This document shows, in pieces, positions 30,778-61,952 of a stretch of DNA of 64,000 nt. The stretch comes from Xylophilus sp. GOD-11R (lineage in GTDB: Bacteria > Pseudomonadota > Gammaproteobacteria > Burkholderiales > Burkholderiaceae_C). The DNA lies in NCBI RefSeq assembly GCF_033546935.1, contig NZ_CP137854.1:1736001-1800000 (forward strand). The letters run 5' to 3'. Under the pieces are notes generated by a model that did not search any database, had not been told where the DNA came from, and worked only from the letters and a program-made list of their open reading frames with translations. The position numbers and the translations under genes were made by a program. Position 1 is the stretch's first letter; each line of letters starts with the position of its first letter.

Positions 30778-30854
30778 AGGCGCGTAGCTCAGCTGGTTAG
30801 AGCACCACCTTGACATGGTGGGGGTCGTTGGTTCGAGTCCAATCGCGCCTACCA
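30778..30854 (+). tRNA. tRNA-Val (anticodon GAC)
   Basis: This is a complete 77-base cloverleaf with encoded CCA. The acceptor AGGCGCG pairs with CGCGCCT, the D arm is GCTC-GAGC, the anticodon stem CCACC-GGTGG surrounds the loop TTGACAT, and the T arm is GTTGG-TTCGAGT-CCAAT. The anticodon GAC reads GUC and GUU valine codons. A prophage integrase gene follows at 30941, facing the tRNA, so the 3' end is very probably the phage attachment site. Confidence 0.97.
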
Positions 30855-30868
30855 ATTAACCATTGGTA
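30816..30868. other. Probable left attachment region at the tRNA-Val 3' end
   Basis: The tRNA 3' half is followed at once by the inverted repeat TACCAAT-N5-ATTGGTA (30850 to 30868), which shares its first bases with the tRNA end. Tyrosine integrases commonly use this part of tRNA genes. The core cannot be bounded because the right end of the prophage lies outside the window. Confidence 0.45.
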
Positions 30869-45706: not shown

Positions 45707-46202
45707 CCTCAAAACCATTGCCGACCGCATGCTTGCCCGCTGCGTCGAGGAGGGCGATTGCCTCATCTGGCCCGGCGCCACCAACCCGAAGGGCTTGCCC
45801 GTTGCCTGGGCTGGCCGCGCCACGGCGTCTGGCCGCCGGATCATCTGGGAGGCGGTCACCGGCAAGGAGCTACAGCTAGCCGACTGCATCCTGATGACCT
45901 GTGAGTGCGTGCGATGCCTGAACTTCGCTCATATGTGCAAAGCTGATCGAAGCGCGGTGATCAAGTTGGCCACTAAGTCCGGCACCCACCGGAGCCCAGC
46001 ACGCGGGCAGAAGCTTCGCGAGGCCTACAAGACGCGAACCGGCTATGACGGTGAAGCCGTGGCGGCATTGGTGAGGTCCAGCACGCTCACTGGCGTGGAG
46101 ATCGAGCGCCAGCACGGGATTCGCCAAAGCGTGGTGAGCCGGATCCGCAGAGGCGTGGCCTGGCCCGAGAAAACCAACCCTTTCGCAGGGCTTGCCCGCT
46201 GA
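45696..46202 (+). CDS. HNH-type endonuclease-like protein
   Basis: This 168-residue protein starts at TTG 45696 with GGGAGG six bases ahead. The core is DCLIWPGATNPKGLPVAWAG, then IIWEAVTGKELQLADCILMT, and CECVRCLNFAHMCKADRSA with Cys and His residues, as in phage HNH_3-type homing nucleases. The C terminus has a helix-turn-helix (GVEIERQHGIRQSVVSRIRR). A free-standing nuclease or a regulator is possible. Confidence 0.65.
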   Translation: MTTDLKTIADRMLARCVEEGDCLIWPGATNPKGLPVAWAGRATASGRRIIWEAVTGKELQLADCILMTCECVRCLNFAHMCKADRSAVIKLATKSGTHRSPARGQKLREAYKTRTGYDGEAVAALVRSSTLTGVEIERQHGIRQSVVSRIRRGVAWPEKTNPFAGLAR

Positions 46203-46408
46203 TGAACTGCGGCACCTGCATCCACTGGGAGCTGAAGGGCTCGCCCATGCGCGCCGTGGGCATGGGCATGTGCGCCCGCGAGGTGGGTGTCTTCCGCCGC
46301 GCGCGCACCTTCGGTCCCGAGGCTCTCTGCGGCAAGAAGCAGTTCCAGCAGGCTGCGCCCGCCGTGGTCAAGGCACGGGAGAAGGCGCTCGCGCGCCTGG
46401 AAGCCTGA
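46202..46408 (+). CDS. Small cysteine-containing phage protein
   Basis: A 68-residue protein with a CGTCIHW start and further cysteines (GMCAREVG, ALCGKKQ), which may form one zinc knuckle. Its ATG overlaps the previous stop. Similar small proteins are frequent before phage terminase genes. Function unknown. Confidence 0.65.
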   Translation: MNCGTCIHWELKGSPMRAVGMGMCAREVGVFRRARTFGPEALCGKKQFQQAAPAVVKAREKALARLEA

Positions 46409-46893
46409 TGTTCAGAGAGGAGCAGCTCCAGCTTTTCCCTGGCCTGGAACCGCCGGCGCCCCTGCCGTGCCCGCGCAAGAAGCCCAAGCCGCGCCGGAAG
46501 AAGCGGCTGCAGCGCCGGTCCGGCCGGCGGCCGCGCATCGCCCAGACCGACTTCTGGGGCGGCACGCTCGACGACTACCCGACGCAGCGCATCACCAAGG
46601 CCAAAGGCAAGAAGCTGCCGCGCACCCTGGGTTACTCAAGCGTATGGGATCTGGCCGCCGCCGGCGAGCGGCCGAAGTCCCTGGGCACGTTCGCACCCGA
46701 GGCGGCACGCAAGGTCATCACTCGCGCGGTGCGCACCGATGGCGTTACCCGCGTCTACGCCGTGCAGGAGCAGGAAACACAGGAGTGGCAGGACAAGGAA
46801 CAGGCGCGGCGCGCCCGCCAACGCCCGCCCAAGCCGCAGAAGCAACGATTCAAGATGAGGAACAGCCGCACATGGGCCGACGGTCAAAGCTGA
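46408..46893 (+). CDS. Basic phage protein of unknown function
   Basis: This is a 161-residue protein, very basic in the N-terminal third (CPRKKPKPRRKKRLQRRSGR). A region with FWGGTLDDYPTQRITKAKGK and a basic tail follow. The start overlaps the previous stop (TGATG). It may bind nucleic acid. No family is recognised. Confidence 0.6.
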   Translation: MFREEQLQLFPGLEPPAPLPCPRKKPKPRRKKRLQRRSGRRPRIAQTDFWGGTLDDYPTQRITKAKGKKLPRTLGYSSVWDLAAAGERPKSLGTFAPEAARKVITRAVRTDGVTRVYAVQEQETQEWQDKEQARRARQRPPKPQKQRFKMRNSRTWADGQS

Positions 46894-47429
46894 GCGATGC
46901 CCAGTGGGCGGAGATCGAGCGCCGGATGTTGGAGGGAGAGTCCGTCCGAGCGCTCGCGCGTGAATACGGAGTAGGGGAGTCATCCATTCGCGAGCGCAAA
47001 ACCGCGCACGTTGAATCAATCAAAATTGTTGCAAATCAGATAGTTGCAACAGAGCGCGCGGTTATGTCGCTGCCGATTTCCGCGCAGATTTCCGCGCACA
47101 ACCTTGCATCGAAATTGCGGGCCATCAGCGACAACCTCGCCAGCGCGGCGCAGTACGGCGCCCAGACGGCGCACAGGCTCAGCGCCCTGGCCAATTCGGA
47201 GGTGTCAAAGGTGGACGACGCATCACCTCTGGCCTCTGTGGAAAGCCTGAAAGGCGTTGCCGCTCTGACCAAGCTTGCCAACGATAGTGCGGCCATCGCG
47301 CTGAACCTGATCGCGGCCAACAAGGAAACGGTCAAGCAGCTGAAAGACACGCCGCCAGAGGACCAGCTGCGGGAACTCTCTGATGCGGAATTTGCGGAGG
47401 AGTTGGCCCGGTATGGCATCGAACCGTGA
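46872..47429 (+). CDS. terS: Terminase small subunit (probable)
   Basis: The 185-residue protein starts with a helix-turn-helix (KLSDAQWAEIERRMLEGESV, REYGVGESSIRERKT), followed by helical segments. It lies directly before the large subunit gene and overlaps it by 17 bases. It should recognise the packaging site and hand DNA to the motor. Confidence 0.8.
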   Translation: MGRRSKLSDAQWAEIERRMLEGESVRALAREYGVGESSIRERKTAHVESIKIVANQIVATERAVMSLPISAQISAHNLASKLRAISDNLASAAQYGAQTAHRLSALANSEVSKVDDASPLASVESLKGVAALTKLANDSAAIALNLIAANKETVKQLKDTPPEDQLRELSDAEFAEELARYGIEP

Positions 47430-48819
47430 TCGCCTTCGTGTGCTGGTAGAGAAGCAACGGCGAGCGGCGAGAGACGATGTCTACGCATTTGCGCGCTGGA
47501 TGTTCCAACGCCGCAAGGGCTTTCGCTGGCAGCAGGCGCCACACCACTCAATCATCTGCGCGGCTCTTATGCGGGTGTTTCGAGGCGAGTGCAAACGCTT
47601 GGTGATCAACGTCCCGCCGCGATACTCGAAGACCGAACTTGCAGTGGTCAACTTCATCGCCTGGGCGTTCGGCAAAGTGCCGGACGCGGAGTTCATCCAC
47701 GCCAGCTACAGCGGCGCCCTGGCCGTCAACAACAGCGCGGCAGTGCGCAGCGTGGTGCAGCACGAAGTGTTCGCGGAGATTTTCCCGGGCGTTGACTTGG
47801 CCAGCGACGCCCAGCACCACTGGAAGACGACCAAGGGCGGCGTGATGTACGCCACCGGCACCGGCGGCACCATCACCGGTTTCGGAGCCGGCAAACACCG
47901 CGAGGGTTTCGGCGGCGCCATCATCATCGACGACCCGCACAAGGCCGACGAGGCCCGCTCTGACGTCATGCGGCAGAACGTCATCGACTGGTTCCAGAAC
48001 ACGCTGGAGAGCCGGAAGAACAGCCCCGAGACGCCGATCATCGTCATCATGCAGCGGCTGCACGAAAGCGACGTGGCTGGCTGGTTGCTTGGCGAGGAGC
48101 CAGGGGTGAAGCCCGGCGGAAACGGCGAGGTCTGGGAACACGTCTGCCTTCCGGTCTGGAACGAAGACGGCACGCCGCTGTGGCCTGAGAAGCACAGCGC
48201 CGAAACGCTGCGCGCCATGGAAAAAGCTGCGCCGTATGTGTTCGCCGGCCAGTACCGGCAGAGCCCGGCGCCACCAGAGGGCGGGGTTATCAAACCCGAT
48301 TTGATGATCGTCGTCGACGTCGCGCCGCCTGGCGTGGTCGAGTGGTGCCGTGGTTGGGACTTGGGCGCCTCGGCCTCCGGCGACTTCACCGCCGGCGTGA
48401 AGGTGGGCCGGCTCGCCGATGGCCGGTACATCATCGGCCACGCCGTGCGCGAGCAGTTCGAGACTCATCAGCGGGACATGCTCATCAAGAACACCGCCAC
48501 CAGCGACGGCAGGGCGCTGAAGCAGTCGCTGCCTCAGGATCCAGGGCAGGCCGGCAAGAGCCAAGTGCTGGCGTTCGCCAAGCTGCTCGCCGGCCACGCG
48601 GTGCACTTCTCACCGGAGTCGGGCGACAAGGTGACGCGCGCTACGCCGCTCGCCAGCCAGATCAACGCCGGCGCGGTTCTGCTGCTCAAGGGTGCTTGGA
48701 ATCAGCAGTTTGTTGATGAGTGCCGGCTGTTTCCGAACGGGAAATATGATGACCAAGTGGATGGCGCTGCGCGAGCATTCAATGCGTTGCTGCATCCGCA
48801 GGCAGGGATATTTACCTAG
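47413..48819 (+). CDS. terL: Terminase large subunit
   Basis: This 468-residue packaging motor has the ATPase motifs VINVPPRYSKTELAVV (Walker A variant) and FGGAIIIDDPHKADEA (Walker B). The C-terminal nuclease domain has WCRGWDLGASASGDFTAGVK and NGKYDDQVDGAARAFN with acidic metal ligands. The start at 47413 gives the best N terminus (MASNRDRLRVLVEKQ). Its stop overlaps by four bases the stop of an opposite-strand cargo gene. Confidence 0.93.
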   Translation: MASNRDRLRVLVEKQRRAARDDVYAFARWMFQRRKGFRWQQAPHHSIICAALMRVFRGECKRLVINVPPRYSKTELAVVNFIAWAFGKVPDAEFIHASYSGALAVNNSAAVRSVVQHEVFAEIFPGVDLASDAQHHWKTTKGGVMYATGTGGTITGFGAGKHREGFGGAIIIDDPHKADEARSDVMRQNVIDWFQNTLESRKNSPETPIIVIMQRLHESDVAGWLLGEEPGVKPGGNGEVWEHVCLPVWNEDGTPLWPEKHSAETLRAMEKAAPYVFAGQYRQSPAPPEGGVIKPDLMIVVDVAPPGVVEWCRGWDLGASASGDFTAGVKVGRLADGRYIIGHAVREQFETHQRDMLIKNTATSDGRALKQSLPQDPGQAGKSQVLAFAKLLAGHAVHFSPESGDKVTRATPLASQINAGAVLLLKGAWNQQFVDECRLFPNGKYDDQVDGAARAFNALLHPQAGIFT

Positions 48820-49871
48820 GTCCGGCCGTTCATAAATTCATCGCGCGACCGAAAAAAGACGCCGGCGGGTGACTTTTGGGTTTTCATGAACGATAGTCTA
48901 AATTGTATGTTTAATACTGGCTCGTAATATAATCGAAGTTCACTAGACGGTCTATTGTTCGAATCAAAAGAAGAAAATTTACGAGTTACAAAAGAATTGT
49001 CTTTTACTCTGTCTTTTTGTGTATCCCAAAGATAGCGAACATACCCTTCATCCAAATGGTTTGATGCATATATACAGGATGATGCCGAATGCATCTGCAA
49101 ACTGTTGATGGCAGATATGTCGGCAATATTCCCAACCGTTTTTATGAAAGTCGGCGGAGGATTTATCGAATACACATTGCTGTCATAGACCATCAAACAC
49201 TTGGCCGGACTCAAAGGTAGGAATATCAATAAGCCAACTGAGCGCGCCCCTAGAACTCCCACTCCCTTTACTTTTTCGTAAAATACATTGTGATATACGC
49301 ACGGGGCATCGCTAAATATAAAAGGCTTGGTGCTTTTATTTTTTAACACAACAACTGCAAGATCGTCGAGGTTATGGCTTTGCTCCACTCCTATTCCGAT
49401 TTTTGTTAACTGGGCTTGCGCAGGAATAACCTCTAATTTGGGGATTACAGCCGCAAGTTCGGCTCTGGAATAGGGGCCCTGTTCTTCCATGATATGCAGT
49501 TTCGACTCTAAATATAAATGAAGCAGGTCGTTGTCAACGCTGGCAGATGCAGAGCGGGCAGCTTCTGTCCTATGCCTCTGCAGTGCAAGCCATAAGCGCA
49601 TGCCATCAAAAGTTTCGTCATCCAATTCGCACAAATCCGAGGCGCTCAAAATTTTGTCGATTGCGGATCCTCCAACGGATTCCAAAGCAGTAACAGCCTT
49701 TTCAATCTCCTCGTCCCCGTAAAACCACGCCTTGCTCGCTTGGTGCTTAATTGACGCGGCCCGAATAAATCTCGATGTGTGTTTTTGGAAAAGCGAAATT
49801 GATTTGCCGTCGGCAGAGAATTTTCGAAAATACCTCTGCGGCACAAAATGCTGGTTCTTTCCATCTGGCAT
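48816..49871 (-). CDS. DUF4238 protein, opposite-strand cargo
   Basis: The 351-residue protein opens with the DUF4238 signature KNQHFVPQRYFRKFS. It then has a helical domain and SDAPCVYHNVFY and IFLPLSPAKCLMVYDSN in the C-terminal half. The start at 49871 has AAAGGA eight to nine bases ahead. The gene is lower in GC than its neighbours and lies between terminase and portal on the opposite strand, so it is cargo expressed in the lysogen rather than a virion gene. DUF4238 has no established function; a host-benefit role such as defence is an inference. Confidence 0.8.
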   Translation of the reverse strand: MPDGKNQHFVPQRYFRKFSADGKSISLFQKHTSRFIRAASIKHQASKAWFYGDEEIEKAVTALESVGGSAIDKILSASDLCELDDETFDGMRLWLALQRHRTEAARSASASVDNDLLHLYLESKLHIMEEQGPYSRAELAAVIPKLEVIPAQAQLTKIGIGVEQSHNLDDLAVVVLKNKSTKPFIFSDAPCVYHNVFYEKVKGVGVLGARSVGLLIFLPLSPAKCLMVYDSNVYSINPPPTFIKTVGNIADISAINSLQMHSASSCIYASNHLDEGYVRYLWDTQKDRVKDNSFVTRKFSSFDSNNRPSSELRLYYEPVLNIQFRLSFMKTQKSPAGVFFRSRDEFMNGRT

Positions 49872-49890
49872 AGCGATAGTCCTTTGCTTC

Positions 49891-49898
49891 CCTAGCAT
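49891..49898 (+). promoter_or_regulatory. CCTAGCAT motif before the portal gene
   Basis: The 8-base word ends six bases before the portal start codon at 49905. Related copies stand at 54352, 61938 and 62306. TAGCAT could be a -10 element that would give nearly leaderless messages. Confidence 0.45.
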
Positions 49899-49904
49899 GG
49901 TCGC

Positions 49905-51302
49905 ATGACCCAGCAGCTCGCCGTAAACGACCTCGACATCATCCGCGCGCGCGATAGCGCCCTTGCCGTGTTCGGCAGCTTAGATACCAAGCGGCCCACC
50001 GCCTGGAATCAGTACGGGTACCGAACCACGCTATCCTTCGACGACTTCAAGCAGGCCTACGACCGGGGCGGCGCGGCCCACGGCGCGGTGCATCGCTTGC
50101 TCGACGGATGCTGGCAGATGCTCCCCCGCATCAAACAGCCTAAGGCCGACAAGGAAACCGCCTGGGAAACTGCCGTGGCTCAAGTGTTGCGCTCGATCAG
50201 AGGTTGGCAGAAGCTCCGCGACCTCGACCGCCGCAACCTGGTCGGCCGGTACGCCGCGCTTATCTATCGCATGGCCGACAGCCAGCCGCTGAGCGCGCCG
50301 CTCGTCAGCGCCCAGAAGCTGGTCGACCTGATTCCCGTCTTCGAAGACCAGATCAAGGTCACCAAGTGGGACGAAGACAAGAACTCGGTCCGCTACGGAT
50401 TGCCCGAGACCTTCCAGTACCGCGCGCGGGCGACGGGCCGCCTGGACACCCAGGGCCGGCCGGACACCTGGGAGGATGTGCACCACACCCGCGTGCAGAT
50501 CTTGGCTGAGGGCAGCGTAGGCGACATGTTCGACGGCATCCCACTACTGCGCGCTGGGTTCAACAACCTGATCGACATCGAAAAGCTGTCCGGCGGCGGC
50601 GCTGAGTCGGCGCTGAAGAACAGCGCGCGGACCATCGTTTTTAAGTACGACCCGAACGCTTCGGTTGCTGCCATCAGCACCACCAACCCCGACGGCAGCA
50701 TCTCCACCAAGTCGGTGCGGGAGGTGCACGAAGAGCAGACGCGCTCGCTCAACCGCAACCAAGATGCCTCAATCGTCCTGCAGGGCGGAGACGCCACTAC
50801 GCTGCAGACCACAGCCGCCGACCTCTCGCCACAGTTCGGCATCGCCGCCAACCTGTTCGCCGCGTCGGTGCGCATCCCCTTCACCATCCTGTTCGGGCAG
50901 CAGACCGGCCGGCTGGCCAGCGATGAGGACAAGGCCGACTTCGGTGCGCGGTGCGCCTCGCGCCAGGCCAACGACCTGACCCCCATGCTCGAGGAGTTCG
51001 TGCGGCGCATGCAGGCTTGCGATGTCATCGCTGCCGGCGACTTCGAAATTGAGTGGCCACCGGTAAACGCGCCGAGCGACCGGGACAAACTAGAGAACCT
51101 GGGCAAGGCCACGGCTGCCATGCAGCAGGCGTTTCAGGCTGGGCTAACTGAGCCGCTTTTCGATGCCAATGAGCTGCGCGCCATGGTGGGCTTCGAGCCT
51201 CGGGCGGATGACGGTATGCCAGAGGAGGGCGATCCCGAGCCAGAAGACCCGGCTGCCGATCCCGACGCCGATCCGAAAGGCACGGGCCAGGCGGCTTCGT
51301 GA
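49905..51302 (+). CDS. Phage portal protein (DUF1073 family)
   Basis: The 465-residue protein has the DUF1073 pattern (GAVHRLLDGCWQMLPRIKQP, GIPLLRAGFNNLIDIEKLSG, ARTIVFKYDPNASVAAI, FTILFGQQTGRLASDEDKAD). The portal forms the ring at the head entry for DNA and the tail. Databases partly name this family after Acb1 anti-CBASS proteins because of fused forms; this protein ends in an acidic, Pro/Asp-rich tail and lacks an Acb1 catalytic part. It overlaps the next gene by four bases. Confidence 0.88.
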   Translation: MTQQLAVNDLDIIRARDSALAVFGSLDTKRPTAWNQYGYRTTLSFDDFKQAYDRGGAAHGAVHRLLDGCWQMLPRIKQPKADKETAWETAVAQVLRSIRGWQKLRDLDRRNLVGRYAALIYRMADSQPLSAPLVSAQKLVDLIPVFEDQIKVTKWDEDKNSVRYGLPETFQYRARATGRLDTQGRPDTWEDVHHTRVQILAEGSVGDMFDGIPLLRAGFNNLIDIEKLSGGGAESALKNSARTIVFKYDPNASVAAISTTNPDGSISTKSVREVHEEQTRSLNRNQDASIVLQGGDATTLQTTAADLSPQFGIAANLFAASVRIPFTILFGQQTGRLASDEDKADFGARCASRQANDLTPMLEEFVRRMQACDVIAAGDFEIEWPPVNAPSDRDKLENLGKATAAMQQAFQAGLTEPLFDANELRAMVGFEPRADDGMPEEGDPEPEDPAADPDADPKGTGQAAS

Positions 51303-52228
51303 TAGAGCGCCCGCGCAACCCGGTGATTCCGGGCAACTCGCGTGATCGCACCGGCTCGGCCGGCATCCTGCGCCGCGGTAATGCCGAGATCAGCCGCCGG
51401 TGGCGCAGCCTGCAGGCCGACGTCCTCGCAGCCTTCGACCGGCTGCCGGTCTACCAGCTCAACGAGGACGACAAGGGCTCAGACACGCCGATTCCGGTGC
51501 GGTATGGCGTCACGCCCCAAGTGCTGGACCAGGCGACCTCCGATCTTCAGGCGGCCCTGGATCGCTGGATCCTCGACGGCCGTCAAGCCGACCACGTCGC
51601 ATGGTGGGACGTCTACGAACAGGAAGCCGCCCAGCTTGGGACGGCGCAGAGCGTGGCGAACCTGTCCAACCTGTCGGCGGCCTATGCCTCAACCCGCACG
51701 CTCCAGACGGTGGTGTTCAGCGAGCCTTACCGCCAGCGCGCGCAGATGGCGCGCACCCTATCGCGAGAGTACTGGACCGGCCTGGCCGACGAGTCGCGCG
51801 CCAAGCTCTCCAGCATCATCGGCCGCGCAGTGATCGACGGGAAGAATCCGAAGGTGGTGCGCAAGGAGATTATGGAGGCGCTGGGCGTTTCGAAGTCCCG
51901 TGCCACTCTTTACGCGCAGACCGACATCACCGGCACGCTGCGCGAGGCGCGCTGGGCGGAAGCTGACGCAGCTGAGGCTGAGCTCGGCGTCCGGACGGCC
52001 TTGCTGTGGACGTCAGCCCTGATCGCTACGACCCGACCTTGGCACGCCAGCCGCAACGGGCAAAGCTACAGCACTGAGCAGGTGCGCGCGTTCTACGCCA
52101 CCAACGGCAACCGCTTCCGCTGCCACTGCGCGCAGACCGAGTGCCTGCTCGACGCCCAGGGCAAACCGATCCTGACCAAGGCGCTTCAGTCGGCAATGGC
52201 GAATGAGCGTAGGGTTTGGTTTGAATGA
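51299..52228 (+). CDS. Head morphogenesis protein (Mu gpF-like)
   Basis: The 309-residue protein has the minor head protein F pattern in its C-terminal half: VIDGKNPKVVRKEIMEALGV, SRATLYAQTDITGTLREARW, RPWHASRNGQSYSTEQVRAF and NRFRCHCAQTECLLD with two cysteines and a His. It takes part in early head assembly. The GTG at 51299 overlaps the portal stop. Confidence 0.88.
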   Translation: MIERPRNPVIPGNSRDRTGSAGILRRGNAEISRRWRSLQADVLAAFDRLPVYQLNEDDKGSDTPIPVRYGVTPQVLDQATSDLQAALDRWILDGRQADHVAWWDVYEQEAAQLGTAQSVANLSNLSAAYASTRTLQTVVFSEPYRQRAQMARTLSREYWTGLADESRAKLSSIIGRAVIDGKNPKVVRKEIMEALGVSKSRATLYAQTDITGTLREARWAEADAAEAELGVRTALLWTSALIATTRPWHASRNGQSYSTEQVRAFYATNGNRFRCHCAQTECLLDAQGKPILTKALQSAMANERRVWFE

Positions 52229-52243
52229 GGTTGGCCGCAAATC

Positions 52244-52963
52244 TTAAATAAACTTCCAGTTTTTTAGGGTGTTTCCAATAGAGACGAATTGAGCGCAAGT
52301 CGCCAATCCAACAAGATTGCCTTTGGTATTCTTGCAATAATCTTCTCTCGTTTTCAAACTTTTGTTTATATTTTTATAGGTAGTCTGCGGAGATATATTT
52401 TTGTATCGCGCTAAAGCAGTGCCAAATGCGTTGGCAAGAGCCTGTCCAGCAAGTGCTTCGGCCGATCCGTTAAAGAGAGTATCGACCGCAACGCACCATG
52501 CTTCGCTCGATTCCGCTATTGGAGCTGGAATATGGCGATTTTTCATCCTGGGCGACGCATCGTTCGGTAGGGATATATAATGAATCAATGCGGTCAGTTC
52601 TGTGCATTTGGCGGCAGAAGATTGGGGCGAACCAAAGACATATCCTCTATCCTTAAGATTCTTTACAAAAGATTGGTCTGGTAAAATGTCGGTATCTAAA
52701 TGTATAAGGATGGAGTCAAGGCCTGATAGCCGCCTTGAATTTGCGAATAGCCCCTGCTCAAAAAGAGGATCTCTTTCTTTTAAGGGGTTACCATCGAGCC
52801 AGCCCAATACATTTCCCCAGCCGCCGCCAGATGTGTTGTCTGCATTTGGCTGTACAGAAATAAATGTTGCCTGTATTCCCGCGTTGTGCAATTCGGCGCC
52901 AAGGTAATGATTTATTGCATGGAAGTCGGTAAGGCCTTCGCAAATAACGCCTATTTTCATCAA
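52244..52963 (-). CDS. TOPRIM-like predicted nuclease, partner of the OLD-like ATPase
   Basis: This 239-residue protein begins MKIGVICEGLTDFHAINHYL, with the Glu of a TOPRIM fold at residue 9. At residues 81 to 92 it has GLDSILIHLDTD, which gives the DXD pair (90 and 92). A later SSEAWCVAVD carries further acidic residues. TOPRIM domains of this kind act as metal-dependent nucleases in OLD, Gabija and PARIS-like systems. The gene follows the ATPase gene with an ATGA overlap, so the two are made together. It is lower in GC than the phage genes around it. Exact subfamily (DUF4276, DUF4435, RloB-like) was not decidable. Confidence 0.7.
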   Translation of the reverse strand: MMKIGVICEGLTDFHAINHYLGAELHNAGIQATFISVQPNADNTSGGGWGNVLGWLDGNPLKERDPLFEQGLFANSRRLSGLDSILIHLDTDILPDQSFVKNLKDRGYVFGSPQSSAAKCTELTALIHYISLPNDASPRMKNRHIPAPIAESSEAWCVAVDTLFNGSAEALAGQALANAFGTALARYKNISPQTTYKNINKSLKTREDYCKNTKGNLVGLATCAQFVSIGNTLKNWKFI

Positions 52964-54228
52964 ACCACCTCCAAGCCGTTAATCCCCTCTATTCTTTCTT
53001 CTAGCCAAAGCTGAGAAAGGTTCTTGCCTTGCGCAAGTACCCGCCACTCGTCACGCGTGACGCCTTGGGGTGGCTCAAGCCGGGTGACGCAGGTGCTGCC
53101 TTCATCATCTCTGTTGACAATGAAAACGCGGTGGTCGTCGTTGAATAAGTCAAATGCGTCTAGCGATGTCGGATTATGACTTGTCAAAAATATTTGTTTC
53201 GGCCCGAAATCCAAGCTCTCCTCGTTGACCTTCTTGGTGAACGCTATCAGTTGCTCCAGAAGTAACCTAGTCATTTTCGGATTAAGCGCGTTATCAATGT
53301 TGTCTAAGGCGAAATACCGGGGCGAACTCGGATGGGCTACCAGCAATCCGATAAATAGAAGGAATAAGGTTCCTTCGCTGCTGTCGTAAACTGAAAGTGT
53401 GTTTCTGGTTTGCTTCATGAACTTATCTATGAAATAAACCATGTCTGAATTTGGCTCCTCCATTCCTCTTGATATCAGTTTTGAATCGATCTTTCCGACT
53501 TTCACAGCGTTTGTCCACCCGGGCAGAAAACTTAACTGTAAGGCGCTATCAATCAGCCTTTTTGAACTGTTGGATAATTTTTTATCTGTGTTGCGCCAAC
53601 GAAGAACTTGAGCCAGTGCTGACGGAAGTCCTTCTCCGTGAAGACCGAAAGGTGCTGTGTCGATTAGCCCAGACCGAGCGCCGCGCAATATGTCAGTCTG
53701 CGGAGTATAAATTGCATACTTGCTAAATTCGTCATATTGGGTTGTTGCAGCTTTTGGAAACGGATATGCGACCTTGATTTGGTCCCACATGCCGCGATCT
53801 TTTTCAAGCACGCCTTTTATAGATTCTCCGAGAGCTGTGCTTCCATTTCCGCTGCGACCAAAAATCTTTCTATTTTGGAAGTATGAGCTTTCGGAGTGAA
53901 ATCTGAGGAGCGGATCATTTTCTTTTGAAAGTAGATTGCATTTATATTGCAACCCGTTGCCAAACTCGAGTTCTAACTCGAAAGATGCAGCAACTTTGTC
54001 CGACTTGAAGGCTGCCTTCATTAACTCGGCGGGGGTAAGTCGAATCCCCTTACTTTTAATTTCAGTGTCGCCAATGCCGCGATTAATTGCGGCAGCGGCG
54101 ATTCCAATTGCTTCGAGAATATTTGATTTGCCAGCCCCGTTGCTACCTACAAATATGTTTACCTGACCAAAATTGAGGTCTAGACGTTTAATGGACTTGA
54201 ATCGCAGGATCTTAAGATTTTTTATCAT
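52960..54228 (-). CDS. OLD-like AAA/ABC-type ATPase, predicted defence protein
   Basis: The protein has about 422 residues. NIFVGSNGAGKSNILEAIG is the Walker A loop near the N terminus. FGLHGEGLPSALAQVLRWRN and YDSSEGTLFLLFIGLL (signature-like) follow. YFALDNIDNALNPKM stands at the Walker B/D-loop place, with Asp-Asn where DE is usual, and IFLTSHNPTSLDAF has the switch His. It ends without its own TOPRIM domain, which is supplied by the next gene. The start may be 54228 or 54282. ATPase-TOPRIM pairs sense phage infection in known systems; this role here is an inference from architecture and from the position as low-GC cargo. Confidence 0.8.
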   Translation of the reverse strand: MIKNLKILRFKSIKRLDLNFGQVNIFVGSNGAGKSNILEAIGIAAAAINRGIGDTEIKSKGIRLTPAELMKAAFKSDKVAASFELELEFGNGLQYKCNLLSKENDPLLRFHSESSYFQNRKIFGRSGNGSTALGESIKGVLEKDRGMWDQIKVAYPFPKAATTQYDEFSKYAIYTPQTDILRGARSGLIDTAPFGLHGEGLPSALAQVLRWRNTDKKLSNSSKRLIDSALQLSFLPGWTNAVKVGKIDSKLISRGMEEPNSDMVYFIDKFMKQTRNTLSVYDSSEGTLFLLFIGLLVAHPSSPRYFALDNIDNALNPKMTRLLLEQLIAFTKKVNEESLDFGPKQIFLTSHNPTSLDAFDLFNDDHRVFIVNRDDEGSTCVTRLEPPQGVTRDEWRVLAQGKNLSQLWLEERIEGINGLEVV

Positions 54229-54351
54229 ATTCTTTGGAATTATTGGAGTCGAAAAAAGTTTTGTAGGTCCACGCAATGACAAACTGCGACATTAAGGAAG
54301 GCAGCGGGTGGTGGCTTTGCATAACAGAATAGTACCGCGCGCAAGGTCGTT

Positions 54352-54359
54352 CCTAGCAT
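54352..54359 (+). promoter_or_regulatory. CCTAGCAT motif before the prohead protease gene
   Basis: This is the same word as before the portal gene, here 24 bases before the start codon at 54384 and directly behind the ATPase cargo gene. GGTCGTTC stands ahead of it, as GGTCGCTTC does at 62306. Confidence 0.45.
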
Positions 54360-54383
54360 CCCCAACACAGTTCTATAAGGGGC

Positions 54384-55703
54384 ATGCACATGGCAGGCAA
54401 GAAACAGAAGCGCGTCCACCTACTGTCGGCGGTGAACGCGGCGAACGTCAGCAAGGATAGCGGCGTCTACACGATCAAGAACGTATGCGGCGCGGTCGAC
54501 GACATCGTCATGAACTCGGTGCTCTACCCGGCGGCCGAGCTGGCCACCGGCGCCAAGACCCTCGACAACAAACCGGCGCCGGCCGGCCACCCGAAGAACG
54601 ACGCCGGCCAGCACATCAGCGCGACCAACGGCGATGCGCTCTTCCGAGCCTGGATCGGCAGCTACTGCACCAACTCACGCCACGAGGGCGGCCGCACTGT
54701 CACCGACATCCGGGTCAACGAGAAGCAGGCCCGGGCCAGCGACGTCGGTGCGCGGCTGATCGATCGGCTCGATGCGGCCATCGCAGGCACAAACGCCGAG
54801 GCCATCCACGTCAGCACCGGTCTGTACTTTGAGCCTGTCGTTGCCAACGGCGAGAGCCGCGGCAAGAAGTACAGCCGCATCGCCACCAACCTGCAATACG
54901 ACCACCTGGCCATCCTGCTGGACGAGCGCGGCGCCGGCACGCCGGAGGAGGGCGTCGGCATGTTCCTCAACTCCGCGGGCGAGGAGGAAGAAATCGAAAC
55001 GGTCGAGGTCAACGCCGCGCCCGACGACCGCCGAGCTGATGGACTGAAGGGCTGGCTGTCCAAGCTGCTCGGCAACGGCTCCGAACTTTCCTTCGACCAG
55101 ATCGATTCCGGCCTGCGCGCTTTGCTGCCCGAGGGCGCTTGGCCGCGCGAGGTCTACGCCCGCGAATTCGTCTGGACCGACCGCGACGGAAACCTGTGGA
55201 AGCAGGGATATGCAGTTTCCGCAGACGCCTCCCTAGCATTTGTTGGCGAGGCCGTCGCGGTGAAACGCAAGGTCGATTACGTGCCCATCACCAACTCCCA
55301 AAAGGACGACCAAGTGAAAGAAAACATCATCGCCGCGCTCAATGCAGCCGGCATCAGCGGCGTTGCGGCGATGACCGACGCGCAACTCCTCGCATCGTTC
55401 GAAGCGGTCAAGGCCAAGCCGCACGTCGAGGCGCTTGCGGCCGTGAACGAGAAGCTCGTCGCAGCCAACAGCCAGATCGCGGGCTTCGAAGCCAAGGAAC
55501 TGGCGGCCACCAACGCCGAGCGCGACACCCTTGCCATCAAGCTGGCTGCCAATTCGTCGCTCACCGCCGACGACTTCAAGGCAATGCCCCTGGCGCGCCT
55601 GAAGGAGCTCGACGCCAAGGCCGCCCCGGTGGTGGTCGGCAACACCCAAGCCAAGCCGGGCGACGAGTTCGCCGGCTACGACCTCAACAAGCTGGAGGCC
55701 TGA
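54384..55703 (+). CDS. Prohead protease and scaffold fusion (DUF2213)
   Basis: The 439-residue protein has the DUF2213 pattern in its first 200 residues (YPAAELATGAKTLDNKPAPA, GHPKNDAGQHISATNGDALF, NLQYDHLAILLDERGAG). A linker and a coiled-coil C-terminal region follow. It should cut the scaffold and capsid proteins during head ripening. TAAGGGG precedes the start. An internal GTG at 55314 with AAAGGA ahead probably starts a separate scaffold protein in the same frame. Confidence 0.85.
   Translation: MHMAGKKQKRVHLLSAVNAANVSKDSGVYTIKNVCGAVDDIVMNSVLYPAAELATGAKTLDNKPAPAGHPKNDAGQHISATNGDALFRAWIGSYCTNSRHEGGRTVTDIRVNEKQARASDVGARLIDRLDAAIAGTNAEAIHVSTGLYFEPVVANGESRGKKYSRIATNLQYDHLAILLDERGAGTPEEGVGMFLNSAGEEEEIETVEVNAAPDDRRADGLKGWLSKLLGNGSELSFDQIDSGLRALLPEGAWPREVYAREFVWTDRDGNLWKQGYAVSADASLAFVGEAVAVKRKVDYVPITNSQKDDQVKENIIAALNAAGISGVAAMTDAQLLASFEAVKAKPHVEALAAVNEKLVAANSQIAGFEAKELAATNAERDTLAIKLAANSSLTADDFKAMPLARLKELDAKAAPVVVGNTQAKPGDEFAGYDLNKLEA
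55314..55703 (+). CDS. Nested scaffold protein from an internal start (predicted)
   Basis: GTG at 55314 is in frame with the protease gene and has AAAGGA eight bases ahead. It would give 129 residues covering the coiled-coil part (VNEKLVAANSQIAGFEAKEL, AATNAERDTLAIKLAANSSL). In lambda, Nu3 scaffold is made from such a nested start inside gene C. The protein is inferred from the start signals and the analogy. Confidence 0.5.
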   Translation: MKENIIAALNAAGISGVAAMTDAQLLASFEAVKAKPHVEALAAVNEKLVAANSQIAGFEAKELAATNAERDTLAIKLAANSSLTADDFKAMPLARLKELDAKAAPVVVGNTQAKPGDEFAGYDLNKLEA

Positions 55704-55706
55704 TCC

Positions 55707-56165
55707 ATGAACCGTATTTTTCGCTCTGGCAGCGGCGTTCCCCGCCCCCGCACCATCACCGACAAGCTGCTGGCCGCCGCGCTGCTGCCCGGCACCGCCG
55801 TCTTCATCGGCGCCACCCAACTGACCCAGGCGACCACCGTGAGCGGCGGCCGGCTGGCGATCCTGGGTGACCGGGACTACTACAGCCCGGGCGGCATCGG
55901 CCTCGCCACCGATCCCCTCATGACGCCTTACGCCGCAGGTGAGTCCGGCGTCGCCTACCTGCCCAAGCCCGACGACGAGTTCGCCATGGCCCTGGCCGCT
56001 GGCACCTACACCGTCGGCCAAGAGCTGACCGTCGGCGCCGCCGGCCGTCTGACTGCAGCGGCCTCCGGAAACATCGTCATGGCCCATTACGACCAGGCCG
56101 GCAAGACCGTCGCCGCTGGCGAACTGGCCGACGTCGTGATCTCCAACTTCTACACCAAGGCCTAA
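55707..56165 (+). CDS. Head decoration-like protein
   Basis: The 152-residue protein, largely beta (LAAALLPGTAVFIGATQLTQ, GQELTVGAAGRLTAAASGNI, VVISNFYTKA), lies between scaffold and major capsid genes, where decoration proteins are encoded. It starts four bases after the protease stop. The name rests on position and composition. Confidence 0.65.
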   Translation: MNRIFRSGSGVPRPRTITDKLLAAALLPGTAVFIGATQLTQATTVSGGRLAILGDRDYYSPGGIGLATDPLMTPYAAGESGVAYLPKPDDEFAMALAAGTYTVGQELTVGAAGRLTAAASGNIVMAHYDQAGKTVAAGELADVVISNFYTKA

Positions 56166-56174
56166 GGGGTCACC

Positions 56175-57173
56175 ATGCTCAAGTTCACTCCCGAACAACA
56201 GGCCACCATCCTGGCCGCCCGCGCCGGCTTCAACCTGCGCATGACGGCGATGGCCGCCAACGCGGCGATGCACATCGAGGGCAACTCGCTGGCGATCCCG
56301 CTGGACGCCTGGCGCCGAATCGACACCCGTGCGCAGGTGCTCGCCCGCACCCGCCTGCCGATCTTCAACCGCTTGGCCCAGGCCAGCACCATTCCGGTCG
56401 ACATCGCGGACCTGGTGAACTTCTACCCTCAGATGGGAGACTCCGGCGACGTGCTGGTGTCCATGGACGGCCGCAACGCTGCCAAGGCCGACGCGCCGGT
56501 GATGAAGTTCGACGGCACCCCGGTGCCCATCCTGACCTCGAATTCGCGCATCGGCTGGCGCCAGATGGCCGTCATGCGTCGCGGCGGCGGTATGTTCGAC
56601 ACCGCAGCCATCGCCAACAACCAGCGCAAGATCGCCGAGAAGCTGGAGGATATGGTCCTAAACGGCCTGTCCTCGGTCAACGTGAACGGCTCGACCATCT
56701 ACGGCCTGCGCAACCTGCCGACGCGCAACACCTTTGTGCATGGCTTCACGCTGGCCACCGCCACCGGTGCGCAGTGGCTGACGATGGTCAAGGCGGTGAT
56801 CGCCCAAGCGCTCGGCGACAACCAGTTCGGCCAGATCACCCTGTTCGTGAACCAGGGCGACTACACCGCAGCGGACACCACCGACTACGCGGCCAACTAC
56901 TCCGGGACCATCCTGGAGCGTCTGCGCGCCATCAGCCAAATCAAGGAAATCGTCCCGGCCGCCTCGCTGCCGGTCAACGAAGTCATCGGCATCGTCGACC
57001 TGGACGCTGGCGAGTGGGGCGGCATCCTGTCGGCCATGCCGCTGACCACGCGGCCCAAGACCCGTGTCGAGCCGGAAGACGACTACGTGTTCGGCGTGAT
57101 TGCTGCTGCTGCTCCGCAGTTCCGCAGCGACTTCGCCGGCCAGTCGGCGTTCATCCACGGCACCCAGGCTTGA
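56175..57173 (+). CDS. Major capsid protein
   Basis: The 332-residue protein follows the usual order after scaffold and decoration genes. Its segments (LDAWRRIDTRAQVLARTRLP, DSGDVLVSMDGRNAAKADAP, MVLNGLSSVNVNGSTIYGLR, PEDDYVFGVIAAAAPQFRSD) agree with phage capsid proteins of the HK97 fold that go with DUF1073 portals. It builds the head shell. Confidence 0.88.
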   Translation: MLKFTPEQQATILAARAGFNLRMTAMAANAAMHIEGNSLAIPLDAWRRIDTRAQVLARTRLPIFNRLAQASTIPVDIADLVNFYPQMGDSGDVLVSMDGRNAAKADAPVMKFDGTPVPILTSNSRIGWRQMAVMRRGGGMFDTAAIANNQRKIAEKLEDMVLNGLSSVNVNGSTIYGLRNLPTRNTFVHGFTLATATGAQWLTMVKAVIAQALGDNQFGQITLFVNQGDYTAADTTDYAANYSGTILERLRAISQIKEIVPAASLPVNEVIGIVDLDAGEWGGILSAMPLTTRPKTRVEPEDDYVFGVIAAAAPQFRSDFAGQSAFIHGTQA

Positions 57174-57183
57174 GGAGGACGTC

Positions 57184-57675
57184 ATGCGATACCTTGTGAC
57201 CCACCTCAAAGCGCCGTGGCCCCAAGGCACGGCTGTCGGCGATGTCGTCGACTTTGACGAAGTGCCCGCCTGGGCAATTGGCAAGTGCACGGCGGCGGGG
57301 GAGGGGAGCGTCGCCTCGGCGGCGCGCGCGACAGCCGGTCCTGACCTGCAGATCGAGCTCGACGATGCCCGCCGTGCGCTGGCTGTCACGCAAGACGACC
57401 TGAAGCGCCAAAGCGAGTTCCTCGAAGGCCTGCAGTCCCAGCTTCGCGAAGCCGGCGAAGAACTGCGCGCCGCAAACGATGCGAAGGCCAAGGCCGAGAA
57501 GGAAGCCGCCGAACTTCGTGCATTGCTGGACGCGGCATCGCAACCAAGCAATGCGCCTGTCGACCGCGCCGCGCTGGAGACGGAAGCCAAGGCGCTGGGC
57601 GTCGACTTTTCGCCCAACATCGGCGACAAGAAGCTCGCCGAACGCATCGCTGAAGCCAAGGCGGCCAAGCAGTGA
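57184..57675 (+). CDS. Structural-region protein with coiled coil
   Basis: This 163-residue protein has a small N-terminal part (MRYLVTHLKAPWPQGTAVGD), a coiled coil (about residues 55 to 115), and a short C-terminal LEM- or SAP-like helix pair (ALETEAKALGVDFSPNIGDK). It stands right behind the capsid gene with GAGGAGG ahead. It may act in head-tail joining. No family is recognised with confidence. Confidence 0.6.
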   Translation: MRYLVTHLKAPWPQGTAVGDVVDFDEVPAWAIGKCTAAGEGSVASAARATAGPDLQIELDDARRALAVTQDDLKRQSEFLEGLQSQLREAGEELRAANDAKAKAEKEAAELRALLDAASQPSNAPVDRAALETEAKALGVDFSPNIGDKKLAERIAEAKAAKQ

Positions 57676-58040
57676 TCACCGCCACGCAGGCGCAGCAGTA
57701 CCTGGATCAGGCACTCGGCGTCAGCGTGCCGGCGTTCGTTGTCGATGCGGCGGTGACGAAGGTTGCCGAGGTCGAGCCTGCCCTTGTGCTGGCCGGCTAC
57801 TCGGCGGCCGATCGGACCTTGATCGAGGCCATGGCGGTCTCGATCATTGCTTCTGCCGGCGCGCCCCGCCGCATCGCATCCCAGGGCGCGCCTTCTGGCG
57901 CCTCGCGCAGCTTCAAGAATTTCGACGCCAGCTTGACGGCCTTGCGCCGCTCGCTCGCCTCGCTCGACACCAAGGGAATCACTGCCGCCCTGGTCGGCGC
58001 TGATCCTGAAACCAACTCCCTCTTCATGGTGGTCTGCTGA
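57672..58040 (+). CDS. Head-tail connector-like protein
   Basis: The 122-residue helical protein (ATQAQQYLDQALGVSVPAFV, LIEAMAVSIIASAGAPRRIA) has the size and place of the gp6/DUF7370-type adaptor between portal and tail. It starts with GTG at 57672, overlapping the previous stop. Confidence 0.65.
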   Translation: MITATQAQQYLDQALGVSVPAFVVDAAVTKVAEVEPALVLAGYSAADRTLIEAMAVSIIASAGAPRRIASQGAPSGASRSFKNFDASLTALRRSLASLDTKGITAALVGADPETNSLFMVVC

Positions 58041-58056
58041 CCGCCGGAGCACTTCC

Positions 58057-59745
58057 ATGTCCGATATCGCCCAGGGCGCCCGTACCAAGCTGATCATCAA
58101 ACCCGGCGAGGTCTACCGCATCGGGACCTCCGGCGCGGCCACCGTGGTGTGTGCGTATGGCGATGCCCCGGCGACCAGCACCGTGGCGGCCAACACCCAG
58201 GCTTTCGGCCCGTACACGAATCAGACCAAGATCGTCATCACCGCGAATACCCGCCGGGCGACGATCACGCGCATGCCGGCGGAGACCACGATCGCGGCGA
58301 CCATCAGCGGGAGCATCGCTGTCGGCCAGACGGTGCAGGCCATCGCCCCGAGCGGCTTCACCGCCACCGGGTACCAGTGGCACCGCACTGTCAACGGAAC
58401 GAAAACCAGCATCAGCGGGGCGACCGCCAGCACCTATCTCGTCGCAAGCACTGACGCTGGTGCGGTGGTGGGTTGCGACATCACGGGGACGGCTACTGCG
58501 GCAGGGGCATTGGTGGCAGCGGCGCCTAGTCCGGGACCCAAAACCGGCTCCTATCTCAGCCGCTTCGGCACCAATTATTCCAGCGCGCCGCTCCAAGCCG
58601 CTGGAAATTCCATGGGAGAGCAAAAGCCGGTAGGCGATTACCCGTACACCGCTTTGCGCGTCACCCTGCACAACTACTCCACCGCCGACATCGTGCTGGA
58701 TAACGTGCAAATTGCCAGCGCACCGGCCGACCTCCACAACGGTGTTGGCCTGGGTTGGCAGCGCGCCACGGTCAACGGCAACACGACCATTACGATCCCG
58801 GCCGCAACCCTCAGCGGCACCGGTTCTTCGCTCACCAACAAGAATCCCGGCCTTGTCACGCTGGACCAGCTTCCTGTGGCGTCCGTGGCGCGCACCGACA
58901 CCCCCGGTGCGCCGTTCCTGGTCCAATTGCGCGCTGATAGTACAGGCGTCATTTCGATTACTGGTGGGCCGATCACCCGGACCAACGAGTCCAAGCCTTA
59001 CTTGGGTGATCGAGGTTATGTCTTCGGCTTTCAGCAGATCGCCTCAAAGATCGCAGCCAACACGAGCCTGCCTTTGACGCTTGGCAGCGGCCTCGGTTCG
59101 GCAGGTGGCCTAATCGGGTCCATCGAAGCCATCACCGGCGATGCCAAGCATTTCCCGATGGCCTTGTTTGCCGACTCCCTGACCGCTGGCTATTCGGGCA
59201 CGTCGGCTGCAGGTCAGATTGGCTGGCCCAATATGGTGATTTTCCGCATGCGGCAGACCGGCAAGATCGGCGCCCTTGCCAATTACGCGGTCGGCGGCAA
59301 AACGCAGGACACGTTCATCAAAGACGCGCGGGCCTACGTCGCACAGAACAAACCCGCTGCGGTCTTTGTGCCGGCGTGGTCGCCGAACAGCAACAGCTCG
59401 CAGGTTGCGTATGACGGCTGCATGGCCAACTTCCAGGCGTTCGCCGCAGACATGATCGCTGCCGGGGTTGTGGTGTACACGGCCACCGCGATGCCGACGA
59501 ACTCGGTTGCCTCGCCGCCTACGACCGCCAACAACAACATCCGCGTCAACTTCAACGCGGCGCTGAAAGCGTTTTGCGCGGCGCAGCCTGCGGGCAAGGT
59601 GATTTGCTTGGACTTCTCGGCCGTGGTCGAAGACCCCGCAGTGCCGGGCGCCGTGCTCGACGCCTACAACTACGACAACACGCATCAGAACCCGACCGGC
59701 CAGCAGGCTATCGCTGATTACGTGAGCACCCAGCTGGGCCTCTGA
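58057..59745 (+). CDS. SGNH/GDSL-type hydrolase in the head-tail gene block
   Basis: This 562-residue protein has a beta-rich N-terminal half with an Ig- or lectin-like look, and from about residue 360 an SGNH hydrolase domain. Block I is FPMALFADSLTAGYSG (ADS instead of GDS, Ser kept), block II is ALANYAVGGKT, block III PAWSPNSNSS with an Asn, and block V NYDNTHQNPTGQQAIADY with the Asp-His pair. It could remove acyl groups from surface polysaccharide during infection. Its place between connector genes, not tail fibre genes, is unusual; it may be displayed on the head or neck. Confidence 0.75.
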   Translation: MSDIAQGARTKLIIKPGEVYRIGTSGAATVVCAYGDAPATSTVAANTQAFGPYTNQTKIVITANTRRATITRMPAETTIAATISGSIAVGQTVQAIAPSGFTATGYQWHRTVNGTKTSISGATASTYLVASTDAGAVVGCDITGTATAAGALVAAAPSPGPKTGSYLSRFGTNYSSAPLQAAGNSMGEQKPVGDYPYTALRVTLHNYSTADIVLDNVQIASAPADLHNGVGLGWQRATVNGNTTITIPAATLSGTGSSLTNKNPGLVTLDQLPVASVARTDTPGAPFLVQLRADSTGVISITGGPITRTNESKPYLGDRGYVFGFQQIASKIAANTSLPLTLGSGLGSAGGLIGSIEAITGDAKHFPMALFADSLTAGYSGTSAAGQIGWPNMVIFRMRQTGKIGALANYAVGGKTQDTFIKDARAYVAQNKPAAVFVPAWSPNSNSSQVAYDGCMANFQAFAADMIAAGVVVYTATAMPTNSVASPPTTANNNIRVNFNAALKAFCAAQPAGKVICLDFSAVVEDPAVPGAVLDAYNYDNTHQNPTGQQAIADYVSTQLGL

Positions 59746-59748
59746 CCC

Positions 59749-59796
59749 ATGGCCGAAAACACCACCGGCAAGTCGTGCGGTAACTGTTGCCGGTAG
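59749..59796 (+). CDS. Possible 15-residue Cys-rich microprotein
   Basis: ATG at 59749, five bases after the SGNH stop, opens a frame of 15 codons ending KSCGNCCR. It could be a small protein, or the start of a gene cut off when the next cargo block was inserted. Evidence is only the tight spacing. Confidence 0.25.
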   Translation: MAENTTGKSCGNCCR

Positions 59797-59817
59797 GCCT
59801 GCCGTGGACCACACTTA

Positions 59818-61188
59818 TCAGGAGTCGGTGCAAGTAACGCGTTGATGCAGCCAAGACGCAGGCCTTGCCGCCGCGATTCCCTCCCAGGAGCCGTTCAAGT
59901 TGTATGTGGACGTTCGCACCACTGAAAACCAAAGTGAATTAGTGCCCAGTCGCATGTTGGTTATTCCAGTGGTTCCCTTGGTTAGCAGCCAGGTCTTCCG
60001 ATCCTTAGCGCTAGTTTTTGGGTTATAGCAGGATGCGTAATAGGTCGGGTTGAGAGATAGGCCGTCAGACGGGCTGCAGGTACTGGCTTGATATTCAAGC
60101 GTAATGGAACTAATGTTCATTTCCCGAGGGAAGTCCCACACGATCTGGTCGGTGTTAACGACAGTCTTTGCATAAGATCCTGGCCCAGTCGACACGGTAA
60201 GCTGCTCTCCAGGCATAAGATCAGCTGCTGTTTGGGCCGTTATAGTACCGGTGCCATCGGCATTTAGTTTGCAGGAGATTGATGCGATGTAGAAGCCCCC
60301 GTCGCTGTTCTCGCAAGGCAGCAGCGTCTGGGTAAGTCCATAAGCCTTGTTGTTAAGCGCCGCAATGATAAGCGGGAGATATGGACCGTGGTCGCTCAAA
60401 TAAGAGTCAATCAGTTCATGGCCAAAAAATGTTGGGTTATTCAAGTTTCTTGGTGACGGTGGCAATGCATTTTTCACCGCACGAATGATGAGATCGTTTG
60501 ATGCTGTGAAGTAGCTGTCTCCAGGTTCTATTATTTGGGCAGTCGGCGGGGCTATTTGTACTACTTTGATGCCTTCTATAGCTGGCATTCCGCCCACTCT
60601 GGCCTTAGCTAATGCTGACTGCAAAAACAAATTACCTTGGGAATGCGCTACCAATAATTGTTTGTATTTGTCATTTCGCAAATCAAAGATCTTCGCGGCA
60701 AATTTCAGTGAAATGGCCTCGGCGTCCGGGCCAAACGTCGCGACGTAGTCCGATGTTGCTGGCAAGGTCTGAATGAGAGCTGCCGCATTGCCTATTTCCG
60801 TTGCGGTGGCATTAAAGAATGAGTGGAAGTTTAAGTCAGGCAGACTTAATCCGCTCATGTAATGGGCAAAGAGATAGCTTGATATATCAAAATTTTCGCT
60901 TTTTTGCTTTTGGTAGGCGGCCTCAAGCGCGTCTAGAAAAAAGCCCGAAGTCGGATTATAAAAAAGTGTGTAAGTCACGTCATGATCGGGAAATACTAGG
61001 TTGGCGTCACCCAAATCTTTCAGCGCGACAAGGCTAGCCTTTGCATCAACATCAGAGTTTGCTACCCCATTGAAGAATCCAATTTTTATGACTTTACGGT
61101 CGCAAATGCTGGACGCCATTGCGCATGTCAGAAACAATGCGCCGATTGCGGCAAAAAAGAGGCGGAACACGGTTTCCGCGTTTTTCAT
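59818..61188 (-). CDS. Secreted alpha/beta hydrolase, opposite-strand cargo
   Basis: The protein has about 456 residues. It has a signal peptide (FRLFFAAIGALFLTCAMASS) and an alpha/beta hydrolase domain with the nucleophile elbow LLVAHSQGNLFLQSALA (AHSQGN), as in lipase-like PGAP1 or DUF676 proteins. Later acidic and His residues (FFGHELIDSYLSDHG) are fitting partners. The C-terminal 130 residues form a beta-rich domain with four cysteines. It is lower in GC than the phage genes around it and overlaps the stop of the lipoprotein gene upstream, so the two are one unit. Target unknown; a lysogenic conversion factor is possible. Confidence 0.7.
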   Translation of the reverse strand: MKNAETVFRLFFAAIGALFLTCAMASSICDRKVIKIGFFNGVANSDVDAKASLVALKDLGDANLVFPDHDVTYTLFYNPTSGFFLDALEAAYQKQKSENFDISSYLFAHYMSGLSLPDLNFHSFFNATATEIGNAAALIQTLPATSDYVATFGPDAEAISLKFAAKIFDLRNDKYKQLLVAHSQGNLFLQSALAKARVGGMPAIEGIKVVQIAPPTAQIIEPGDSYFTASNDLIIRAVKNALPPSPRNLNNPTFFGHELIDSYLSDHGPYLPLIIAALNNKAYGLTQTLLPCENSDGGFYIASISCKLNADGTGTITAQTAADLMPGEQLTVSTGPGSYAKTVVNTDQIVWDFPREMNISSITLEYQASTCSPSDGLSLNPTYYASCYNPKTSAKDRKTWLLTKGTTGITNMRLGTNSLWFSVVRTSTYNLNGSWEGIAAARPASWLHQRVTCTDS

Positions 61189-61814: not shown

Positions 61815-61937
61815 GTTATTTCCGTGAAAATTGACTGACCTACATGTCATTTGGCAATTTCTTTTCTCGCAAATGTCTACCTTTGTTTTAGAACTTTCAA
61901 TAGGTAGATAGTGCTAAACAAAATTGGTGATGCCGTT

Positions 61938-61945: not shown

Positions 61946-61952
61946 TTGGGGC

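Follow-up and report, generated by a model that had tools for sequence, protein, structure and literature searches.

A low-GC ATPase and TOPRIM gene pair of the PDC-M31 kind, a candidate anti-phage module carried by a Xylophilus prophage

A coupled gene pair between phage head genes

We analysed a window of 64,000 nucleotides from Xylophilus sp. GOD-11R (contig NZ_CP137854.1, positions 1,736,001 to 1,800,000), in which a prophage carries two adjacent genes, A and B, that an earlier note had read as a split pair of OLD-like ATPase and TOPRIM protein (Table 1). The two open reading frames (ORFs), their minus-strand orientation and all of the motifs listed in that note (GSNGAGKS, SSEGT, LDNID and TSHN in A; CEG and HLDTD in B) were confirmed from the sequence. 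The junction, given there as ATGA, in fact reads TGATG, the last base of A's TGA overlapping the ATG of B, and a Shine-Dalgarno-like GGAGG lies 7 nt 5' of this ATG within the end of A. An in-frame TTG would lengthen A to 440 aa, reaching 54282, and the 239 residues that the note had given for B hold with an upstream TTG at 52963 but not from the ATG. Residue numbers of B count from the optional TTG and thus refer to the 239-aa form. A and B are real, adjacent and coupled genes. Promoter- and terminator-like sites were not above the counts in shuffled sequence.

As the earlier note had also stated, the pair is lower in GC content (0.455 for A and 0.442 for B) than neighbouring phage genes (0.64-0.67 in terL, portal, the head-morphogenesis gene and the next head gene), and GC at third codon positions is 0.41-0.48 in A and B versus 0.81-0.85 in the same head and packaging genes. 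The flanking genes lie on the opposite, plus strand. One of them is the head-morphogenesis gene that the note had recognised (phrog_758, 9.1e-78); its label of prohead protease for the other proved weak, as that gene matches phrog_760 (1.1e-89), a PHROG without assigned function, and reaches just E 0.0033 against a head-maturation-protease family.

Table 1. The gene pair and related features of the prophage, on the scale of the window
Feature	Position	Strand	Basis
Gene A: ABC/SMC-type ATPase, 422 aa (PDC-M31A)	52960..54228	-	ORF from ATG; profile matches
Gene B: stand-alone TOPRIM-type protein, 238 aa (PDC-M31B)	52244..52960	-	ORF from ATG; profile match
TGATG stop/start overlap of A and B	52958..52962	-	read from sequence
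Low-GC (0.453) insertion slot between plus-strand phrog_758 and phrog_760 head genes	52229..54383	not applicable	
27-bp att repeat, copy 1	30829..30855	+	3' end of tRNA-Val
27-bp att repeat, copy 2, beyond the window	81197-81223 (L147 17197-17223)		repeat of tRNA 3' end
DUF4238 protein gene, GC 0.442, between terL and portal	48816..49898	-	PF14022, E 8.3e-31

Both genes match the PADLOC candidate PDC-M31

A matches PDC-M31A at 8e-91 over residues 1-416 of 422, and B matches PDC-M31B at 1.5e-10 (39 bits, residues 2-94), a match that recurs in 22 of 22 diverse B sequences. PDC-M31 is a candidate in PADLOC-DB 2.0.0, where its models (PDLC04570 and PDLC04571-04573) stand without description. The PADLOC PDCs were chosen by guilt-by-embedding among defence genes and are mostly unvalidated (PMC12988326, where M31 is not named). 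We found no publication on PDC-M31, nor another description of the pair, in the open-licence PMC literature, which leaves absence unproven. Since both genes fit PDC-M31, the pair belongs to an already catalogued candidate kind, and the suggestion that it might be an undescribed system is rejected. Its reading as a split OLD-like ATPase and TOPRIM pair and a candidate defence module is supported.

A and B recur together

Clear relatives of A (A-profile score of at least 169) occur at 28 distinct loci, that of Xylophilus included: 27 loci (28 rows, with one locus present twice) and L129, which was checked separately for B. Statistics given for 26 loci leave out L004, which is the same locus as L143, as well as L144 and L129, in which A is incomplete. 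B lies directly 3' of A in all 28 distinct loci, independently of the B profile for the 12 genome loci, and the gap between the genes runs from -97 to +3 nt by start choice (27 loci). Recurrence of the adjacent pair in every locus is far beyond chance. Moreover, distances in A and in B correlate (rho 0.59 over 26 loci, a value reached by 0 of 1000 label shuffles), as expected under co-inheritance; mean identity across these loci is 36% for A and 23% for B. That A and B are co-inherited and coupled is strongly supported. Genome G167 holds two weaker A matches outside the 28 loci, an end fragment that reads DN and whose B match is weak, at 19 bits (L057), and a 56-bit A match with EE in Walker B and no B (L058).

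The A family is rare, being found in 3 of 369 genomes of the class and 12 of 398 of the phylum, with the Xylophilus genome counted in both. Among this genome and 99 relatives, 18 have an A match at E<=0.001, but this match covers most of the length only in the Xylophilus genome itself and in G033 (residues 1-394, 32% identity). In a scan of genome contigs with the ATPase alignment the unspecific Walker A pattern dominated, and the 14 loci obtained seem to belong to other ATPases; tblastn against phage records returned nothing for B and one 30% match for A, in a record without annotation.

The neighbourhood scan of the 12 genome loci covered 115 of 124 ORFs, with matches from 25 of 131 families listed; it had no control, and we claim no enrichment. 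Among the matches listed were single ones to type I restriction-modification, DpdF, PDC-S05, PsyrT and RtcR and three to mad2, one of the latter being the type I methyltransferase of L137, the only locus whose matches were assigned positions. There (L137 8372-15320) the relative pair lies directly downstream, on the same strand, of a type I operon with specificity, methyltransferase and restriction genes. When long neighbours were scanned singly, one of nine had a PADLOC match.

The ATP site of A carries a fixed Asn in Walker B

The motifs of A comprise Walker A (GSNGAGKS, with K34), SSEGT (283-287, with G286), LDNID (308-312) and TSHN (349-352, with H351). In Walker B, D309 is followed by N310 at the place expected of the catalytic Glu, just as the earlier note had reported; beyond it lie D312 and N316-P317. 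Across the 26 loci K34, G286, N310, D312, N316, P317 and H351 never vary. N310 is also kept in the two loci with an incomplete A, which makes 28 of 28, and 120 of 120 database relatives listed, the best 120 of 655, likewise have Asn there. Among 15 distinct RloA/AbiLi-like comparators, from which duplicates had been dropped by sequence and two more by eye (L110 = L095, L114 = L102), Walker B reads DE in 13 and DN in one (L119) and is unreadable in one. Walker B and the D-loop together read DN..LNP in the PDC-M31A set versus DE..LH in the same 13 of 15 comparators. With DN[VIL]D..LNP common to the relatives and DE in most comparators, the motif marks the PDC-M31A family, with one DN case outside it. 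That case, an AbiLi-like ATPase with the motif LDNFDSDLHP (L119 1492-2886), has no B relative in its locus, and its DN suggests that the Glu may have given way to Asn on more than one occasion. Judged from the aligned sequences, Asn in Walker B is a trait fixed in the lineage and not a defect or peculiarity of the Xylophilus copy; its reading as a sign of decay was rejected, Asn being fixed in the family members examined.

The model of A matches the heads of Rad50, PtuA and GajA, with PtuA as the top Foldseek matches; an HNH nuclease is named in titles of the structures matched. It is strongly supported that A is an ATP-binding head of the SMC/Rad50/PtuA/GajA type, with Walker A, signature Gly and switch His intact.

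B has the residues of a two-metal TOPRIM nuclease

B carries CEG (E9) and HLDTD (D90, D92). Invariant in 26 of 26 loci are E9, D13, D90, D92, W156 and K201, and E154 is kept in 25; the K201 column falls in a Lys-rich, gapped stretch of the alignment, so its 26/26 may partly reflect alignment. In BpOLD, E400, D455 and D457 are ligands of metal A, E404, T506 and E508 are ligands of metal B, and K562 is catalytic (PMC6755086). Spacing and conservation suggest that E9, D13, D90, D92, E154 and K201 of B correspond to E400, E404, D455, D457, E508 and K562, the two proteins agreeing in the succession of Glu, acid at +4, DxD, Glu and Lys (E154-K201 = 47, E508-K562 = 54), and structural alignment of the B model from residue 2 on BpOLD from residue 393 is consistent with this correspondence. 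S152, which would match T506, is kept in just 15 of 26 loci.

Two hallmarks of TOPRIM, a Glu behind the first strand and a DxD further on, are present in B (E9, D90 and D92 in all 26 loci), and its model places strands at 2-7, before E9, and at 84-87, before D90. Against a viral structure library the top match of this model was an RloB-like protein (prob 0.99), and in re-alignment to the PDB ranks 2-4 went to two chains of OLD TOPRIM and to retron Eco2. The resemblance of the B model to RloB and to OLD TOPRIM domains came with weak scores. The 50 VIA rows for B contained no RloB or AriB structures, which is uninformative either way, and sequence search of the PDB gave no match for B alone and two weak, irrelevant ones for its profile. 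These residues make it very probable that B is a nuclease of the two-metal TOPRIM type.

The pair is inserted cargo of a prophage

The surrounding genes are those of a prophage, with an integrase adjoining tRNA-Val, a RecE-like exonuclease, a repressor, terminase, portal and head genes, and the att repeats, about 50.4 kb apart, mark its bounds. For comparison of the slot, 34 related viral contigs, several of them near-duplicates, were retrieved by searching with the two flanking proteins. A and B were found in none of the 34, and the pair is missing from the equivalent slot in all 29 of those with both flanking genes, the gap between the flanking open frames being below 180 bp in 11 of the 29. 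Absence of A and B from related viral contigs, together with the short gap in 11 of them, argues that the pair is inserted cargo, in line with the earlier note. The pair does occur in 14 viral contigs of different kinds. The phage collection held no near DNA match to positions 45000-64000.

The DUF4238 gene is also present in L064 and L090, two viral contigs that have it in the same slot and on the same strand. Strong T7 resistance was conferred by a DUF4238 protein encoded in a hotspot of P2 phages (PMC9122126), and by analogy the gene looks like a second, defence-like cargo gene of the prophage; with such a gene also amid head genes, the slots between these genes seem worth mining for defence cargo. 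In L063 the terL-portal slot holds a different reverse-strand ORF (407 aa, GC 0.49).

Two more reverse-strand genes with a GC content of 0.48 lie at 59818-61850. One encodes a protein of 459 aa that begins like a signal peptide and whose AHSQG motif points to an alpha/beta hydrolase; Pfam, PADLOC and PHROG gave no match for it. The other encodes a 221-aa lipoprotein-like protein (LSACGGGG); the two are possibly surface-altering cargo. In the rest of the prophage, a low-GC stretch (0.518) at L147 ~10000-12000 (74001-76000 on the window scale) contains a 381-aa ORF at L147 11088-12233. Outside the prophage, positions 4001-6000 have a GC content of 0.49-0.54 versus 0.64-0.72 in the surrounding chromosome.

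A proposed mechanism and its alternatives

We consider it probable, by analogy with PARIS, OLD/Gabija and AbiL, that the pair is a prophage-borne anti-phage module fitting PDC-M31, in which an ATP-gated clamp holds a TOPRIM nuclease effector. The mechanism is modelled on AriA/AriB, in which the TOPRIM effector is kept sequestered by a hexamer of the ATPase and cuts tRNA once a phage protein has set it free (PMC12409363). A would dimerise or oligomerise on ATP and keep B inactive; a phage cue, whether a trigger protein, DNA ends or a nucleotide change, would open the clamp and free B, which would then cut nucleic acid (phage DNA or host tRNA), and this cleavage would stop the rival phage and protect the lysogen. 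The observed base of this scheme is the conservation of the ATP and nuclease sites, the pairing and the mobility; the complex, low hydrolysis, the trigger, the substrate and protection are what we infer.

With Asn fixed where the catalytic Glu would stand, A would be an ATP-binding clamp with slow or no hydrolysis and not a cycling motor, a view that draws on precedents as well. In ABC exporters, conserved degenerate sites retain ATP unhydrolysed, loss of the Glu, where it is conserved, has been read in a review as a sign of new function with ATP as glue, and a D-loop Asp-to-Asn change permitted ATP-dependent dimerisation of the ABCB2 domain (PMC7756269); for GajA, a loss of hydrolysis is described as likely (PMC12796447). 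More tentatively, and as something possible rather than probable, PDC-M31 might form a distinct split OLD-like immunity class in which, with the family-wide Glu exchange and the D-loop-place Asn, ATP serves only as glue, and a non-cycling clamp over the TOPRIM nuclease is fired by losing or displacing its bound ATP and not by hydrolysis. If the Asn does make a pure ATP-binding switch, the family would be a natural experiment separating ATP binding from hydrolysis in SMC/OLD-like immunity. The pair adds to the ABC-ATPase/TOPRIM immune pairs, a set in which both trigger and substrate have been established in few cases.

The pair could instead be a diverged RloA/RloB (AbiL) system, of the same job and family, with an ordinary hydrolysing ATPase and an RloB nuclease. 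RloA/RloB is named for its setting beside a type I restriction operon, and one relative, L137, directly follows such an operon; the order of ATPase and then TOPRIM protein is the same wherever both are on one contig, the top viral fold match of B is RloB-like, 4 of 22 B sequences have weak RloB Pfam matches (best E 0.0034), and A matches AbiLi at 4.4e-18. This last value is, however, far poorer than the fit of A to PDC-M31A, Xylophilus B has no RloB match at E<=1, and the Walker B signature of the PDC-M31A set departs from that of 13 of 15 comparators; we judge this reading unlikely. We give an equally small chance to a second one, in which H351 or D312 takes over ATP hydrolysis in A and the complex works as a processive DNA nuclease or a motor, like OLD. 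Both residues are invariant in all 26 loci, and the archaeal OLD protein Cran1 tolerates alanine at either Walker B acid with its ATPase unaffected in vitro (PMC12796447), but the conserved degenerate exporter sites, which keep ATP unhydrolysed, speak against it (PMC7756269).

A role other than defence, be it a toxin-antitoxin-like or host-conflict module with B toxic and A restraining, or a pair for the prophage's own cycle, seems improbable. An addiction module would presumably also be expected to show such stop/start coupling and to pair a nuclease with a partner of its own, and a phage phenotype is so far unreported. Yet the slot is empty of the pair in every related contig with both flanks, which indicates that the pair is dispensable for the phage cycle, other kinds of viral contig carry it too, and PADLOC selected its PDCs, taken as a group, for being embedded among defence genes (PMC12988326).

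Comparison with known systems

Taken as an anti-phage module, the pair resembles PDC-M31 in that both proteins match and stand in the same gene order, adjacent on one strand; there is no tested difference, and the match of B is weaker than that of A. With PARIS it shares separate genes for an ABC ATPase and a TOPRIM effector, known there as phage and satellite cargo, and A matches the AriA profile at 1.7e-20. B differs from PARIS and OLD class 4 in having no DUF4435 (PF14491) match at E<=1, DUF4435 being absent also among the 11 families listed for 22 B sequences, and PARIS was rejected for the lack of DUF4435 in B. In addition, the PARIS-like, DUF4435-linked ATPase of L146 has DE in Walker B where A has DN, though such comparators were few (2 of 143 genomes) and Walker B was readable in this one alone. 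In OLD classes 1-3 ATPase and TOPRIM form one chain, whereas here they are two ORFs joined by TGATG, on which ground single-chain OLD was rejected; the Walker B Asn also sets A apart from OLD class 1/2 and GajA. Gabija (OLD class 2) was rejected as no GajB UvrD-like helicase lies alongside, the neighbours being the phrog_758 and phrog_760 head genes.

RloA/RloB and AbiL have the same arrangement of an ATPase followed by a stand-alone RloB-like TOPRIM protein. They differ in the Walker A and Walker B/D-loop signatures, and the RloB (PF13707) Pfam match is lacking in Xylophilus B and weak where it occurs among the 22 B sequences, in spite of the RloB-like top fold match. A search with the AbiLi family matched 113 of 114 genomes; this seems to be due to a generic model, and the counts were not used. 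The host chromosome has a second AAA_21-like ATPase gene (G000:C1:4168853-4170001, near L002) that matches the AbiLi model at 1.7e-22. Finally, A shares its ATPase head fold with PtuA of Septu and retrons, but the partner of PtuA, PtuB, is an HNH protein, whereas B is of the TOPRIM type.
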